A stretch of 64,000 bases of DNA. Origin: an uncultured Prevotellaceae bacterium. GTDB taxonomy: Bacteria; Bacteroidota; Bacteroidia; Bacteroidales; Bacteroidaceae. A program made the translations under genes and the position numbers. Of the stretch, positions 39,306 to 63,535 are shown one piece after another. Location of the stretch: the NCBI GenBank assembly GCA_900316285.1, contig ONCG01000013.1, positions 79,344 to 143,343 on the forward strand, written 5' to 3'. Position 1 is the first letter of the stretch; each line of letters starts with the position of its first letter. Under the pieces are notes generated by a model. That model had not been told where the DNA came from. It made no database searches and saw nothing but the letters and a program-made list of their open reading frames with translations.

Positions 39306-40964
39306 TTAGAAATCGCCATCAGTATTCGTCATTTTTTTCATTCTTGAGAGCATAGTCCTCCAAGCGCCCTCGCTCATTCCCATGATTGTTCGTATCTCCT
39401 CATCGCTCTTCCCCAAGTGGCTCATGATCAAGGTGAAACGCTGCTGGGGCGTGAGCAGCGAATAGCCATCCTGCAGCACCACCGAGAACGGAATGTCGCG
39501 TATGCAGTAGTAAGTCTCGAAGTCTTGATAGTCGCGCTTATACCAGTTCTTCGTGTTGCCTCCTGCCATGAACTGCTCGAAGAGCACGCAGCCATGCGAC
39601 AGCTGCTGCACGTAGTTTTTCTTCATTCGCTCGAGGGTGTCCTCCTGCGCCTGCTCCAGTTGTGTGAGCCGTTCGTTGGCATACTGCAACTGCCCTCGCG
39701 ACTTGCGATTGTCGGAAGCCATCGAGTCCATGAGCTGCTGGGTGCGGGCGGCCTCTTCCTTCACCTTCTCAATGGCCTGGGCATTCTCAGCCATCTGCCG
39801 CTGCAGCGCCTGCAGCCTGTTTTCGCTATGTCGCTTCCGCTGGTAGGCAAGCACGGCTCCTACCGCCAGCACGGCGAGCAATCCCCCACTCCACAGCCAC
39901 GCCGTGCGCCTGCCCGTCTCCAGTTGCTCGTGCTCAATGCGCTTGTCGAACTGCTGTTGCTGTCGCTCCACGTTGTCCTCCCGCCGTTGCCGGTCTACGG
40001 AGTCTTTCAGCTGCGCTATCTCCGAGGCCAGGTCGTTGGCGCGGCGGTAGTCGCCCTGCTGCATCTTCAGCTCCCTAAATGCCTGCAACGTGCTGATGCG
40101 CGTATCAGAACGGCGGGCCACCTCCAGCGCCTTCACATACATCTCCTCAGCCTGCTTCATGTCGCCACGGTCGGCATACAGTCCTGCCAACGACCTGTAG
40201 GCAAATCCGTGTGGCTCTATGTCCAGTGAACGTCGCAGCAGTTCCTCGGCCTTCTGCACACTGCCCAGGTTTTTATAGTACACACCCAGATTGGCCAGCA
40301 CGTGTGCCTGCTCCTCCTTGCTCACCGATGCGATGAGCGGAATGCACTGTTCGAAGTAGTAGAGCGCGCTGTCGGTTTTACCCACATGATGATAGGCCAC
40401 AGCCAGCACCTCGTAGTCCTCCACCAGCAGCTTCGGGTTGTTCAACCCCCGACAGCAGGCCACGGCCTCCTTGGCATAGCGCAACGCCGTCGGATAGTCG
40501 CCTGCCGTGAAGTTGATGTCCTCCAGCCGGTTGCATATCTTACTGCGCAGCAGTTGGTCGCCCACATCGGCCGCCAGCAGTTCTGCCTGCTTCAGGTTCT
40601 CCACCGCCTCGCGCGTCTTGCCTTTCTCGCTCTGCACCGCTCCTTTATAATAATAGGTGCGAGCCAACAGGTTGCTCGGGCCGTGCGCTTTGTAGAAAGC
40701 TAGGCTGAAGTCGAGCAGCGAGTCCGATGCCACTGGCACGTAGGCCTTCCACATCGCCTGCACGCGCAGCAACTGGTAGTAGGCACGCTCCTCGTCGGTC
40801 ATTGCCGCCGTGTCCACACGCTGCACTTCTCTCCACGCCGAGTCAGAGAGTTCCTTGTTCAGCAGCGAGTCTATCTGCACCAACTGTTGCCTTGTCGGCT
40901 GGTTGCCTTGTCTGCATCCTGCCAATAGGGGCAGCACCAGAAGCAAAGGGAATAGTCTTTTCAT
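39306..40964 (-). CDS. TPR membrane protein with C-terminal HTH-like segment
   Basis: From ATG 40964 the 552-residue protein has a lipoprotein-like signal (LLLVLPLLAGC) and eight or so TPR units (YYYKGAVQSEKGKTREAVEN, ANLGVYYKNLGSVQKAEELL, LAGLYADRGDMKQAEEMYVK). A transmembrane helix (WLWSGGLLAVLAVGAVLAY), a coiled coil (about 380-450) and a C-terminal region end in EIRTIMGMSEGAWRTMLSRM. The last part resembles a helix-turn-helix. This is a widespread Bacteroidetes design: periplasmic TPR sensor joined through the membrane to a putative DNA-binding tail. The upstream -7 box is at 40990-40997. Confidence 0.8.
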   Translation of the reverse strand: MKRLFPLLLVLPLLAGCRQGNQPTRQQLVQIDSLLNKELSDSAWREVQRVDTAAMTDEERAYYQLLRVQAMWKAYVPVASDSLLDFSLAFYKAHGPSNLLARTYYYKGAVQSEKGKTREAVENLKQAELLAADVGDQLLRSKICNRLEDINFTAGDYPTALRYAKEAVACCRGLNNPKLLVEDYEVLAVAYHHVGKTDSALYYFEQCIPLIASVSKEEQAHVLANLGVYYKNLGSVQKAEELLRRSLDIEPHGFAYRSLAGLYADRGDMKQAEEMYVKALEVARRSDTRISTLQAFRELKMQQGDYRRANDLASEIAQLKDSVDRQRREDNVERQQQQFDKRIEHEQLETGRRTAWLWSGGLLAVLAVGAVLAYQRKRHSENRLQALQRQMAENAQAIEKVKEEAARTQQLMDSMASDNRKSRGQLQYANERLTQLEQAQEDTLERMKKNYVQQLSHGCVLFEQFMAGGNTKNWYKRDYQDFETYYCIRDIPFSVVLQDGYSLLTPQQRFTLIMSHLGKSDEEIRTIMGMSEGAWRTMLSRMKKMTNTDGDF

Positions 40965-59277: not shown

Positions 59278-60633
59278 ATGAAACAGAAAAGATTTATCCT
59301 TCAGGAGAATGAGATGCCTACGGCATGGTACAACATTCAGGCTGACATGCCCAACAAGCCTCTGCCTCCCATCCATCCCGCTACGAAGCAGCCGCTGGGC
59401 GTGGACGATCTCGCACACATCTTCCCACGCGAGTGTTGCGTGCAGGAACTCGACCAGGAGCATTCCTTCATCCCCATCCCCGAAGAGGTGCTGGAGAAGT
59501 ACAAGTACTACCGCTCCACGCCGCTGGTGCGTGCCTATGCGCTGGAAGAAGCTCTCGGAACGCCTGCCCACATCTACTTCAAGAACGAGTCGGTGAACCC
59601 GCTGGGCTCGCACAAGATCAACTCTGCCCTGCCCCAGTGCTACTACGCTAAGCAGGAAGGCACCACCAACGTCACCACAGAGACGGGTGCTGGCCAGTGG
59701 GGTGCTGCGCTGAGCTATGCTGCTTCGGTGTTCGGACTGGAGGCTGCCGTCTATCAGGTGAAGATCTCCATGCAGCAGAAGCCCTACCGCTCTTCCATCA
59801 TGCGCACGTTTGGTGCTGCCGTGACGGGTTCGCCCTCTATGTCGACACGTGCCGGTAAGGATATCATCACCCGCGACCCACGCCATCCAGGCTCGCTGGG
59901 AACGGCCATCTCTGAAGCCGTGGAGCTTGCTACTACCACGCCCAACTGTAAGTACACGCTGGGCTCTGTACTCAACCACGTGGCCATTCATCAGTCTATC
60001 ATCGGCCTTGAAGCCGAGAAGCAGATGGAGAAGGCCGGCGAATATCCCGATGTGGTTATCGCCTGCTTCGGTGGCGGCAGCAACTTCGGCGGCATCGCCT
60101 TCCCCTTCATGCGTCACAACATCCTCGACGGCAAGACAACTGAGTTCATTGCTGCTGAGCCCGAGAGCTGCCCGAAGCTCACACGCGGCGAGTTCCGCTA
60201 CGACTTCGGCGACGAGGCTGGCTACACACCCCTGCTGCCCATGTACACGCTCGGCCACGGTTTCAAGCCTGCCAACATCCACGCCGGAGGTCTGCGCTAT
60301 CACGGTGCCGGCATGATTGTCTCGCAACTCATCAAGGACGGTCTGATGCACGGTGTCGACATTCCGCAGCTCGAGACCTTCGAGGCAGGCATGCTCTTCG
60401 CCCGCACCGAGGGCATCATCCCTGCTCCCGAGTCGAGTCACGCCATCGCCGCCGCCATTCGCGAAGCCCAGAAGTGCAAAGAGACGGGCGAGGAGAAGGT
60501 CATCCTCTTCAACCTCTCAGGTCACGGACTCATCGACATGACCGCCTACGAGCAGTTCCTCAACGGCGACCTGCAGAACTACAAGATCTCCGACGAGGAC
60601 ATCGAGAAGAATCTCGAGAGCGTGCCGCAGTAA
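59278..60633 (+). CDS. trpB: TrpB-like PLP enzyme (tryptophan synthase β type 2)
   Basis: The 451-residue protein has KYYRSTPLVRAYALEEALG, YFKNESVNPLGSHKINSALP (PLP-Lys in HKINSA), ETGAGQWGAALSYAAS, CFGGGSNFGGIAFPF and the C-terminal VILFNLSGHGLIDM. This is the TrpB2 (long) class, which works without TrpA and may use free indole or act in serine deamination. A leader with adjacent Trp codons and a terminator sits in front. It is followed by cysK, which has its own cysteine leader. Confidence 0.92.
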   Translation: MKQKRFILQENEMPTAWYNIQADMPNKPLPPIHPATKQPLGVDDLAHIFPRECCVQELDQEHSFIPIPEEVLEKYKYYRSTPLVRAYALEEALGTPAHIYFKNESVNPLGSHKINSALPQCYYAKQEGTTNVTTETGAGQWGAALSYAASVFGLEAAVYQVKISMQQKPYRSSIMRTFGAAVTGSPSMSTRAGKDIITRDPRHPGSLGTAISEAVELATTTPNCKYTLGSVLNHVAIHQSIIGLEAEKQMEKAGEYPDVVIACFGGGSNFGGIAFPFMRHNILDGKTTEFIAAEPESCPKLTRGEFRYDFGDEAGYTPLLPMYTLGHGFKPANIHAGGLRYHGAGMIVSQLIKDGLMHGVDIPQLETFEAGMLFARTEGIIPAPESSHAIAAAIREAQKCKETGEEKVILFNLSGHGLIDMTAYEQFLNGDLQNYKISDEDIEKNLESVPQ

Positions 60634-60716
60634 AAAAGGGTTTAAAGGGTATAAAGGGGAGAAAAGGGCATAAATGGGACGATAGTTCCGCCTCTGAATG
60701 ACCAACACCCAGTGTG
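60634..60716. repeat. AAAGGG simple repeat
   Basis: AAAAAAGGGTTTAAAGGGTA-type repeat with AAAGGGGAGAAAAGGGC, a family also found at 5183-5225, 39209-39235 and 62213-62262. Confidence 0.6.
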
Positions 60717-60842
60717 GTCCCCTCCTTCTGGAAGGAGGGGTCAGGGGTGGTAGAGAAAAAAGAGGTCATTACCTAATAATTTAATTGGTCGAGCCTTATT
60801 TGTCGCTACCACCCCGCACCCCTCCTCCCCAGAGGAGGGGAC
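60717..60842. repeat. MITE-like element, copy 3
   Basis: Ends GTCCCCTCCT and GAGGAGGGGAC, with GGGGTGGTAGAGA and TCGCTACCACCCC inside, 126 bp, the same length as copy 1. Closest in structure to copy 1. Confidence 0.8.
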
Positions 60843-60963
60843 AACAGGCCAACACCCACCGTAGGGGCAGACCCTATTGCTACCCTCCTTCGGAGGGGCT
60901 GGGGGAGGTCGTCTGCCCGAACAATTCCCCCTTTATCCTTAACAATAAAAAAAACGAAAGCAA
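60843..60963. repeat. Repeat tail and cysK leader upstream region
   Basis: A half of the GTAGGGGCAGAC element with CTCCTTCGGAGGGGCTGGGG inside (60862-60923), then AT-rich sequence. The promoter for the cysK leader was not identified. Confidence 0.5.
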
Positions 60964-61056
60964 ATGAACCGCAAGCACTACCGCCAGAACGCATGTTGTT
61001 GTTGCGCTAATCTCCCTCGATTAGCGGCTGGTGCTGCATGCTCCTGTTCTGGCTGA
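60964..61056 (+). CDS. Cysteine-rich leader peptide of cysK
   Basis: ATG at 60964 opens a 30-residue peptide, MNRKHYRQNACCCCANLPRL followed by AAGAACSCSG and TGA at 61054. Codons 11-14 are four consecutive Cys (TGT TGT TGT TGC, 60994-61005), with two more at 26 and 28. Six Cys in 30 residues is far beyond chance for a bacterial protein. The hairpin segments that begin immediately after the Cys run are listed separately. The peptide acts, I infer, as a cysteine-sensing ribosome-stalling leader for cysK. Confidence 0.85.
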   Translation: MNRKHYRQNACCCCANLPRLAAGAACSCSG

Positions 61057-61131
61057 ACGCTTTCGGTCATCAGAGACAACAAAACCAGAGAAGCTCCGCT
61101 AATCAAACGAAACTGATTGGCGGAGTTTTTT
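61006..61131 (+). promoter_or_regulatory. Cysteine attenuator: alternative hairpins and terminator of cysK
   Basis: Segment 1 GCTAATC (61006-61012, just past the Cys codons) pairs with segment 2 GATTAGC (61019-61025), with a six-base loop. Segment 2 extended, GATTAGCGG (61019-61027), is the perfect complement of segment 3 CCGCTAATC (61096-61104). Segment 3 within CTCCGCTAATC (61094-61104) pairs with segment 4 GATTGGCGGAG (61115-61125). An 11-bp stem forms, with one G·T, a 10-base loop and then six T (61126-61131). Stalling at the Cys codons would cover segment 1, free segment 2 to pair with 3, and block the terminator. Confidence 0.85.
61094..61131 (+). terminator. Attenuator terminator of cysK
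   Basis: Stem CTCCGCTAATC / GATTGGCGGAG, ten-base loop, TTTTTT tail, ending 46 bp before the cysK start. Confidence 0.88.
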
Positions 61132-61177
61132 CATTAAAACGAACAAATATCAATCAACCAACCAATACACAAAAATT

Positions 61178-62089
61178 ATGATTTACAAGAGTCTTACTGA
61201 ACTGATTGGGAGTACACCGCTCCTGAGTTTGAAACCACAAGAAGGTCAGCTGGCCAACATCGTCGCCAAGCTGGAGTATTTCAACCCTGGAGGCAGCGTG
61301 AAGGATCGCATCGCACGCGCCATGATAGAGGATGCCGAGGAGCGCGGACTGCTGAAGCCCGGCGCAACCATCATCGAGCCCACCAGCGGCAACACGGGCG
61401 TTGGCCTGGCATGGGTGGGCACGAGCAAGGGTTATCGTGTTGTGCTCACCATGCCCGACACGATGAGTCTGGAGCGACGCAACCTGCTGCGCGCCTATGG
61501 GGCAGAGCTGGTGCTGACGCCTGGTGCAGAGGGCATGAAGGGCGCTATTGCCAAGGCCACCGAACTAAAGGAGCAGACACCCGGTGCCATCATCCTCGGC
61601 CAGTTTGTGAACCCTGCCAACCCTGCTGCTCACGAGCGCACCACAGGTGAGGAAATCTGGGCCGACACCGAAGGCCGCATCGACATCTTCGTGGCTGGCG
61701 TGGGCACCGGTGGAACCGTCAGCGGTACGGGTCGCGCGCTGAAGAAACACAACCCGTCCGTGAAGGTGGTGGCCGTGGAGCCGGCTTCGTCGGCTGTGTT
61801 GTCGACGGGCACGCCTGGCAAGCACAAGATTCAAGGCATCGGCGCAGGCTTCGTCCCGCAGACCTACGCAGCTGATGTAGTCGATGAAATCGTGGCCGTG
61901 AGCGACGACGATGCCGAGCTTCACGCCCGTCTGCTTGCCCAGGGCGAAGGACTGCTCGTTGGCATCTCCTCGGGTGCCGCCTATGCCGCCGCACTTCGAC
62001 TGGCCCGCCAGCCTGAGAATCAAGGCAAGACCATCGTCGCCCTGCTGCCCGACACCGGCGAGCGCTATCTCTCGACTGGCCTTTTTTAG
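61178..62089 (+). CDS. cysK: Cysteine synthase A (O-acetylserine sulfhydrylase)
   Basis: The 303-residue PLP enzyme has [18 protein letters not shown] (Lys42 binds PLP), the substrate loop [10 protein letters not shown] (67-76), [13 protein letters not shown] and [12 protein letters not shown], and the end [10 protein letters not shown]. It makes cysteine from O-acetylserine and sulfide. The acetylserine donor gene cysE follows after 185 bp. The leader at 60964-61131 suggests that cysK, and perhaps cysE, is raised when cysteinyl-tRNA is scarce. Confidence 0.97.
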
Positions 62090-62274
62090 AAGTTGAGACG
62101 TTGAGAAGTTTAGTACCCCCTCACCCCTCCTTCCCGAAGGAGGGGACTACGCTGGGGCTCGTTATTGTTCGGTCAGACACGGGGGTCTGCCCCTACCCTT
62201 GGCTGCAAAAGCATACGTCCCTTTTCTCCCCTTTTCTCCTCTTTAAACCCTTTAAACCCTTTCAGTAAAGCAAC
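62090..62274. repeat. Repeats between cysK and cysE
   Basis: CCTCACCCCTCCTTCCCGAAGGAGGGG palindrome region (62115-62145), a half of the GACACGGGGGTCTGCCCCTA element (62170-62200), and CCCTTTTCTCC/CCCTTTAAAC simple repeats (62219-62262). No clear terminator or promoter separates the genes. Confidence 0.6.
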
Positions 62275-63126
62275 ATGAACAGACAACACATTCGTCAGAA
62301 CACCCTGCCTACAGCCACCGATATCGATAACCTCATGGACCTCTTCCGCGAAGTCATGTTCCCGATGGTCTACAGCCCCCAGTCTCTCTCTTCCCCCACC
62401 CCACAGGAGGAAGAGGGGATGGGGCTGCAAACCGCCACCGCGGAGATTAATGCTAAGCTGCGGCAACTGGCACAGCAGGTCCTGATCGTTGCCACACAGG
62501 CCGACGAACAGGATGCAGCTGCCCACGCCGATGTCATCGCACAAGGCCTGCTCGAACAGCTCACCGACATTCGCCAGCTGCTGCTCTCCGATGTTGAAGC
62601 CGTGGCACTCAACGACCCTGCCGCCGGTTCATCGGTGGAGGTCATCTGCTGCTATCCCGCCATCACCGCCATGCTGCATCATCGCATCGCCCACGCCCTG
62701 CACAAGCTCGGCCTGCCGCTGCTGCCACGCATCATCAGCGAACGGGCACATTCCATCACGGGCATCGACATCCATCCTGCCGCACAAATCGGAGCCTCCT
62801 TCGGCATCGACCACGGCACAGGCATCGTCATCGGTGCCACCACCATCATCGGCCATCACGTCATGCTCTATCAGGGTGTCACCCTCGGTGCCCGCAACTT
62901 CCAACACGATGCCGACGGACGCCTCTTGAACGAGCCCCGCCATCCCATCATCGAGGACCACGTCACCATCTATTCCAACACCTCCGTTCTCGGTCGCATC
63001 CGCATAGGCCATCACTCCGTCATCGGCGGTAACCTCTGGATCACTCACGACGTGCCACCTCAGTCGCAGATTCGCCAGTCGAGGCCCGAAAGGCACACCC
63101 TCTTCATCGACGGCGCCGGCATCTGA
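62275..63126 (+). CDS. cysE: Serine O-acetyltransferase
   Basis: The 283-residue protein has the C-terminal left-handed β-helix with SITGIDIHPAAQIGASFGID, HGTGIVIGATTIIGHHVMLY and YQGVTLGARN. These contain the CysE catalytic His and Asp (IDHGTG). It makes O-acetylserine for CysK. Near residues 32-50, YSPQSLSSPTPQEEEGMGLQ is partly coded by a short repeat piece. A helix-rich N-terminus is typical. It likely belongs to the cysK transcript. Confidence 0.95.
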   Translation: MNRQHIRQNTLPTATDIDNLMDLFREVMFPMVYSPQSLSSPTPQEEEGMGLQTATAEINAKLRQLAQQVLIVATQADEQDAAAHADVIAQGLLEQLTDIRQLLLSDVEAVALNDPAAGSSVEVICCYPAITAMLHHRIAHALHKLGLPLLPRIISERAHSITGIDIHPAAQIGASFGIDHGTGIVIGATTIIGHHVMLYQGVTLGARNFQHDADGRLLNEPRHPIIEDHVTIYSNTSVLGRIRIGHHSVIGGNLWITHDVPPQSQIRQSRPERHTLFIDGAGI

Positions 63127-63250
63127 GGAACAAACAGCAGAGCTGCAGGCTATGATGCAGGGATCTCTTTTCACGCGCGAAGCGCTTTCACATCCGCAGG
63201 GCTTTATATAAATGTGGGTGTGTCAAAATAGAGCAAGGAGTTCATTTGTT
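63127..63250. repeat. Mini-hairpin remains after cysE
   Basis: A TTCACGCGCGAAGCGCTTTC unit (63172-63190) and CACATCCGCAGGGC. Nothing else recognised. Confidence 0.5.
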
Positions 63251-63388
63251 GTCCCCTCCTTCGGGAAGGAGGGGTTAGGGGTGGTAGCGATAAATAATGT
63301 TCGACCTTTCCTAAATATTTAATTTATAATAGGTTATATCATTATTCTTCTCTACCACCCCGCACCCCTCCTCCCAGGAGGAGGGGAC
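63251..63388. repeat. MITE-like element, copy 4
   Basis: Ends GTCCCCTCCT and GGAGGGGAC, with GGGGTGGTAGCGA and TCTCTACCACCCC, and the AATGTTCGAC central motif also seen in copy 1. The AT-rich centre is longest here. Confidence 0.8.
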
Positions 63389-63535
63389 TACTGGCTGCGA
63401 CTGTAATTTGTAACACTGTAACGCAGACCTAGCCTATTGGCATAACGCCCCAGGCTTTACACGCGACGACAGTCGCTTTACACGAGCCGTAGGCTCTTTA
63501 CACGCCGAAGGCCTTACACGCGCGTAGCGCTGTTT
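63389..63535 (-). repeat. Mini-hairpin array with TTTACACG linkers
   Basis: CGACGACAGTCGC, GAGCCGTAGGCTC, CGCCGAAGGCC and CGCGCGTAGCGC are joined by TTTACACG or TTACACG. It shows that the linker is constant within an array and that at least two linker types exist. A CTGTAATTTGTAACACTGTAA direct repeat lies at 63399-63425 and again near 63553-63575. Confidence 0.8.

Follow-up and report, generated by a model that had tools for sequence, protein, structure and literature searches.

A predicted ribosome-mediated cysteine attenuator upstream of cysK in one lineage of Bacteroidales

The window, i.e., the whole 64-kb stretch of DNA that was analyzed here, contains on its forward strand a gene for cysteine synthase A, cysK (61178–62089), which is assigned to TIGR01139 with 442.6 bits (curated cut-off 350.95), followed by a gene similar to those for serine O-acetyltransferases (cysE/epsC; 62275–63126), which stays below the cut-offs of both TIGR01172 (153.5 vs. 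210.65) and NF041874 (149.3 vs. 150). On the same strand, 5′ of cysK, there is a leader peptide frame of 30 codons (60964–61056) that is translated as MNRKHYRQNACCCCANLPRLAAGAACSCSG and has six Cys codons, four of them in tandem as codons 11–14 (60994–61005), and comparable frames are present 5′ of cysK at 19 other loci. A relative of the cysE-like gene is found in 15 of these 19 other leader loci. Directly upstream of the leader and in the same direction lies a trpB-like gene (59278–60633); considering frames of at least 150 codons in the sequence stretches examined, such a neighbor is present in only one of the 19 other loci, namely L088 of genome G440, the other member of the window's genus found with a leader, where it likewise precedes the leader and shares 95.7% identity over 399 residues. 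The starts of the leader frame (60964–60990, MNRKHYRQN) and of the cysE-like gene (62275–62301, MNRQHIRQN) resemble each other, perhaps by chance. The intergenic space near cysK and the cysE-like gene also harbors interspersed palindromic repeats of about 26–60 nt around CCCCTCCTTC..GAAGGAGGGG, which are REP- or MITE-like (60713–60765, 60794–60846, 60883–60908, 62117–62156, 63247–63306, and 63340–63395). Moreover, a purine-rich stretch of 47 nt (60635–60681) and its inverted copy (62216–62262, 89% complementary) lie on both sides of cysK, the former in the space that precedes the leader and the latter in the one that precedes the cysE-like gene.

The initial annotation had described the short frame with its four consecutive and two additional Cys codons, and this description holds at all positions. 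The four-Cys-codon pattern occurs twice in the window if both strands are considered, where 0.25 occurrences are expected by chance, the second one being at 39952–39963 (TGCTGTTGCTGT); therefore, the Cys run alone is only mildly unusual and the main weight lies on its conservation. Four segments of the forward strand can pair in alternative ways: segment 1 (about 61005–61012) with segment 2, segment 2 (GATTAGCGG, 61019–61027) with either segment 1 or segment 3, and segment 3 (61094–61104) with either segment 2 or segment 4 (61115–61125), the latter being the 3′ arm of a predicted intrinsic terminator with a run of six T (61126–61131). The four segments and the six T had been placed correctly; the statement that they come after the frame does not apply to segments 1 and 2, since segment 1 starts within the last Cys codon and both lie inside the leader frame. 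The claimed perfect 9-bp match between segments 2 and 3 was verified, as segment 3 contains the exact reverse complement of GATTAGCGG, namely CCGCTAATC. The region of 231 nt folds with −70.3 kcal/mol compared to −45.1 kcal/mol (sd 4.0) for shuffled sequences (z −6.3), and none of 200 shuffles was as good. The hairpin of segments 3 and 4 is absent from a general terminator scan of the window, for which the limit of the loop was 8 nt. From the end of the predicted terminator it is 46 nt to the ATG of cysK, which is left uncovered.

A comparison of the leader DNA with 399 genomes of the window's family gave six matches, out of which the window itself, L002, and L003 are homologous. The other three are read as unrelated, L004 being a terminator-like stretch and L005 and L006 being judged by sequence, with no annotation; DNA similarity alone is a poor guide to these leaders. 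Leaders were also sought upstream of cysK itself. From a CysK protein scan of named genomes the best 80 of 582 relatives were used; 500 nt upstream of all 80 loci were screened for short Cys-rich frames, and the upstream sequences of 34 were also read. Nine leaders were found among these best 80 (L009, L010, L013, L015, L019, L020, L021, L025, and L074), with L010 being detected on reading and not by the screen. Within the window's genus, 50 of 60 genomes have a CysK match, and two of the 30 cysK loci examined from these genomes carry a leader, the window and L088 (for L095, the upstream sequence is limited to 11 nt). Neither a run of three Cys nor a model match was found upstream of 29 loci from an order-wide sample of 393 genomes. 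A final screen covered 139 cysK loci with up to 400 nt of upstream sequence and frames starting at any ATG. At least three consecutive Cys codons are present at eight of these loci, all of them leaders (L009, L015, L020, L021, L025, L074, L088, and L087, which is the window's own locus), and an upstream frame with only two adjacent Cys at 14. From the latter, L010 and L013 were kept because of their segments and terminator; the remaining 12 (L017, L037, L040, L041, L042, L046, L049, L061, L107, L120, L127, and L135) were dropped, and the model R2 finds no leader there. L019, in which the Cys codons are scattered, escapes both the three-in-row and the two-in-row screen. Three of the dropped loci, L040, L041, and L127, belong to a Bacteroides lineage outside the leader-bearing branch and have similar short peptides with two adjacent Cys about 100–190 nt before cysK, which could be a different and weaker case; folding of L040 and L127 gave no clear terminator.

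Independent of the downstream gene, leaders were predicted with the covariance model R1, which was built from the pairings 1:2 and 3:4 without the 2:3 pairs and is blind to what follows. Of the six matches that R1 gave over 301 genomes of the window's family, three are training leaders, L149 (52 bits) is a new leader, and two are false, scoring 38.2 and 35.5 bits, below the new leaders. These false matches are plain terminators without a Cys leader, one at the end of a gene of a ribosomal-protein cluster (L150) and one at the end of a transporter-like gene (L151). In the family of G838, eight matches were obtained from 199 genomes, two training and six new leaders (41.5–58.7 bits), with five of the six being near relatives of L020. 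All seven new leaders have a Cys run and are positioned before cysK, and segments 2 and 3 are paired in 56 of 56 cells, a count to be read with the model's preference for the usual letters and with the kinship of the five relatives of L020 in mind. cysK also follows the leaders L002 and L003, which were found by DNA similarity; ten other leaders say nothing on the link to cysK, since they were found via cysK loci. When R1 was run on 13 genomes at an E-value of 0.001, exactly one match was obtained in 11, each time the known leader before cysK, and none in the genomes of L012 and L013. A wider search in the phylum matched one of 213 genomes, the own one, and in the families of G846 and G845 one of 150 and one of 114 genomes, respectively, was matched, in each case the center genome itself. 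Six of 149 genomes matched in the family of G847, comprising the center and five already found in the G838-family search. All searches across more than 40 genomes used stricter filters, with which weak matches are lost.

Two alignments were evaluated for pairing, A2 with 12 leaders (MAFFT, no structure used) and A3 with 19 leaders. L013, which has only two Cys in a row and scores 19.9 and 31.4 bits, is outside both, as MAFFT misplaced its segment 3 in A1, and is counted as leader-bearing in the tree only. Three to five Cys in a row are present in 17 of the 19 aligned leaders; a run of three is absent from L019, L010, and, outside the alignment, L013. The third aligned codon is Cys in 19/19 leaders and the second and the fourth each in 17/19, and the conserved codons vary synonymously with T or C at the third base. 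Outside the Cys run the peptides differ widely between groups of leaders, as judged by eye. A terminator stem followed by at least four T in a row is seen by eye in 18 of the 19 leaders, the weak case being L088, in which the T run is poor (TTAT) and the placement of segment 2 uncertain. Segments 2 and 3 are paired in 95.8% of 96 cells in A2 and in 97.4% of 151 cells in A3, with both sides changed at four of eight pairs in either alignment, whereas versions slid by 1–3 columns give 15–44% in A2 and slid controls 18–45% in A3, a comparison in which the registers are favored because they were picked by eye from the same sequences. Out of five measures for 2:3 in A2, three were reached by none of 500 shuffles, one by 8, and one, further pair types, by 452. 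In A3, 500 shuffles that ignore kinship reached the both-side changes in 44 cases, the further pair types in 56, and the other three measures in none. One example is the pair of columns 30/122, where U-A is replaced by C-G in L009, L010, and L088, which stem from different parts of the tree (with segment 2 of L088 being uncertain), and by G-C in L166. The pairings 1:2 and 3:4 taken together are formed in 92.7% of cells in A2 and in 91.9% of 285 cells in A3, and 14 of 16 and 13 of 15 pairs, respectively, show changes on both sides. Considered singly in A3, 3:4 is paired in 96.2% of cells with both sides changed at six of seven pairs; 1:2 has the weakest pairing (88.2%) and covaries. In the initial annotation the attenuator had been made to depend on conservation of the Cys run and of 2:3 in relatives, and on this sequence side it stands: both are kept across 19 leaders, with compensatory changes. 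Thus, a frame with a Cys run, three mutually exclusive helices that covary, a T run, and the link to cysK are what the comparison of related sequences supports.

In 18 of the 19 leaders, segment 2 lies 14–18 nt from where the last Cys codon of the run begins; the exception is L019 with its scattered codons, where the last Cys before segment 2 is 17 nt away. The edge of a ribosome with a Cys codon in the A site lies about 14–18 nt further on. The spacing, a part of whose constancy is accounted for by kinship, hence agrees with a ribosome whose footprint takes in segment 1 and does not reach segment 2. Five leaders have a further Cys codon nearer to segment 2 (5–9 nt). The start codons of the frames were picked by eye. 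The stop codon is located 22–35 nt past the start of segment 2 in 16/19 leaders, 6 nt past it in L010, and directly at this start in L025 and L149. Segments 2 and 3 are separated by 40–78 nt. Folding of the nascent RNA of the window predicts 1:2 with a probability of 0.85 when segment 1 is free and 2:3 with 1.00 when segment 1 is masked. As long as segment 4 is missing, masking of segment 1 gives 2:3 a mean pair probability of at least 0.5 in 18 of the 19 leaders, L088 being the exception. With segment 1 free, 1:2 exceeds 2:3 at equilibrium in only three of 19 (the window, L003, and L074), using fragments that begin with the Cys run. In full-length fragments 3:4 reaches at least 0.9 in 13/19, and with segment 4 present and segment 1 masked 3:4 is still at least 0.58 in 18/19 and 0.00 in L015. 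Equilibrium thus ends in the terminator whether segment 1 is masked or not, except in L015, and therefore the switch must be kinetic, i.e., depend on the order of events, as is also required in known attenuators.

A quick maximum-likelihood tree was calculated from 148 CysK rows (147 loci plus the window). One branch of 35 rows (SH-aLRT 95) comprises all 20 cysK genes that bear a leader, and no leader was found among the 113 rows outside this branch, where L095 is not judgeable with its 11 nt. The leader label requires a minimum of nine changes on the tree, of which three are forced by starred branches. Consequently, the leader is a trait of one CysK lineage and was either lost several times in it or gained more than once. 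The element is present in several groups of Bacteroidales; in the sample from the window's genus the leader-bearing CysK lineage is the exception, and the element is patchy and rare there. The initial proposal of a cysteine attenuator of Bacteroidales is upheld by the comparison as an interpretation; the element is not general in the window's genus (two of 30 loci) and follows one CysK lineage. At L012 (1356–1487), cysK is preceded by a terminator that closely resembles the one at the sister locus L074, without a Cys frame; this locus was not counted as a leader and looks like a natural loss of the sensing half.

Taken together, the element in front of cysK very likely acts as a ribosome-mediated transcription attenuator, with charged Cys-tRNA being the signal. 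From its architecture we infer that the frame is translated, that ribosomes stall on it, that transcription terminates in the cell, and that the element responds to cysteine. A ribosome would translate the leader while RNA polymerase makes it. When Cys-tRNA is scarce, the ribosome would stall at the Cys codons and cover segment 1, by which segment 2 would be freed to pair with segment 3 once this is made, so that 3:4 would not form in time and the polymerase would read through into cysK and the cysE-like gene. With ample Cys-tRNA, the ribosome would reach the stop codon, and either 1:2 would form or the ribosome would cover part of segment 2; then 3:4 could form and transcription would end near 61131. 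cysK would very probably be turned up under cysteine shortage in this way.

How the leader is transcribed may differ between loci. In 8 of the 19 leaders a TAnnTTTG box, which we take to be a promoter box and from which we presume the position of the start site, ends 6–8 nt 5′ of the leader ATG, and for this reason the transcript would be nearly leaderless in these cases. The window has no such box in the 364 nt preceding the leader even with one mismatch allowed; therefore its leader may use a promoter before the trpB-like gene or a promoter of another kind. At L015, 4 nt separate the Cys leader frame from the end of a tRNA gene upstream of it (1249–1321; anticodon GTG as read by eye, His), and as this gene has its own TAnnTTTG box upstream, leader and tRNA may share a transcript. 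Bacteria of this phylum make little use of Shine-Dalgarno sites. Rather tentatively, one may think of a class of attenuators of Bacteroidales whose leader frames are read from nearly leaderless transcripts, with the first ribosome loading at the 5′ end as the polymerase starts, an idea we regard as doubtful. If true, transcription attenuation would be tied to leaderless initiation in this phylum.

The nearly leaderless look of these eight leaders is shared with poly-Cys leaders that have been reported in mycobacteria, and both would agree with attenuation at the level of translation, in which stalling frees the start of cysK and the hairpin is incidental or only ends upstream transcripts. This is improbable, as the terminator is conserved, with a stem and at least four T in 18/19 leaders and a well-paired, covarying 3:4 helix, and as the terminator of the window ends well before the ATG of cysK without covering it. 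Slightly less probable still is an ordinary terminator of the upstream gene next to a small Cys-rich peptide with a role of its own, such as metal or redox binding, so that there would be no switch at all. The trpB-like gene upstream in the same direction in the window and in L088 would suit a terminator of this kind, as would the similar terminator without a Cys frame at L012; yet that gene was found at none of the other leader loci under the frame limit given above, the peptide beyond the Cys run differs widely between leader groups, and covariation of 2:3 would be needless for a bare terminator. A metabolite riboswitch or a T-box that controls cysK, the frame being fortuitous, would fit in that the leader is structured and a terminator precedes an amino-acid gene. 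This is hardly credible, since no Rfam family reaches its gathering score in the leader of the window, where matches at a loose threshold stay far below, or, except for the tRNA of L015, in a scan of 11 leader loci, and the spacer between segments 2 and 3 varies widely.

The element favored here would be a classical attenuator that responds to cysteine and controls a biosynthetic operon, and whose parts (control codons and the helices 1:2, 2:3, and 3:4) are conserved. It would occur in Bacteroidales of rumen and gut, for whose cysteine genes no control at the RNA level is described in the literature searched. In this literature, largely open-access main texts, no leader of a Bacteroidales cysK was found, which does not prove absence from print, and passages of PMC2965389, PMC8040213, and PMC11109978 name none. 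The element would offer a reporter of Cys-tRNA charging for anaerobic Bacteroidales as well as a test of coupled transcription and translation there.

Classical attenuators of Proteobacteria are known from the trp, his, leu, thr, and ilv leaders. The element resembles them in its tandem codons for the regulated amino acid, in segments 1–4, in the mutually exclusive antiterminator and terminator, and in the biosynthetic genes downstream; it differs in the amino acid, which is cysteine, in its occurrence in Bacteroidales, in the lack of an Rfam match, and in the 8 of 19 start codons that lie 6–8 nt past a predicted promoter box. The Bacteroid-trp RNA (RF01692), a trp attenuator, matched neither the leader of the window nor the 11 loci. 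It is listed for Bacteroidetes (PMC2864571). For Flavobacterium psychrophilum, clues to leader-peptide attenuation upstream of amino-acid operons have been reported (PMC9723704). Upstream of cys operons in Mycobacterium and other organisms, Cys leader peptides have been predicted that lack conserved terminators (PMC1262725), and translation attenuation of cysteine genes is reported for M. smegmatis, with leaderless transcripts in mycobacteria (Canestrari 2020). Like the Bacteroidales leaders, these are short frames with consecutive Cys codons 5′ of cysteine genes, but they are described without a conserved terminator and, in M. smegmatis, as translation attenuation, whereas the terminator is conserved here. 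A precedent is uORFC-8-2 before cysS of Rhodobacterales, a candidate attenuator with two Cys codons in tandem, stems, and a U run at the end; ribosome-mediated attenuation by Cys-tRNA has been proposed for it, and a third pairing is described as rare and without covariation (PMC8632094). Therefore, the cysteine attenuator claimed as new in the initial annotation is new in its position before a Bacteroidales cysK and not without precedent. Both elements share a uORF with Cys codons, stems, a U run, and the proposed attenuation by Cys-tRNA, but uORFC-8-2 differs in its target, a cysteinyl-tRNA synthetase, in its occurrence in alpha-proteobacteria, and in having two tandem Cys instead of the three to five of 17/19 leaders here. 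Judged from sequence, the element is thus new as a member, with the full anatomy of a classical attenuator put together for cysteine before cysK of Bacteroidales, and not as a kind.
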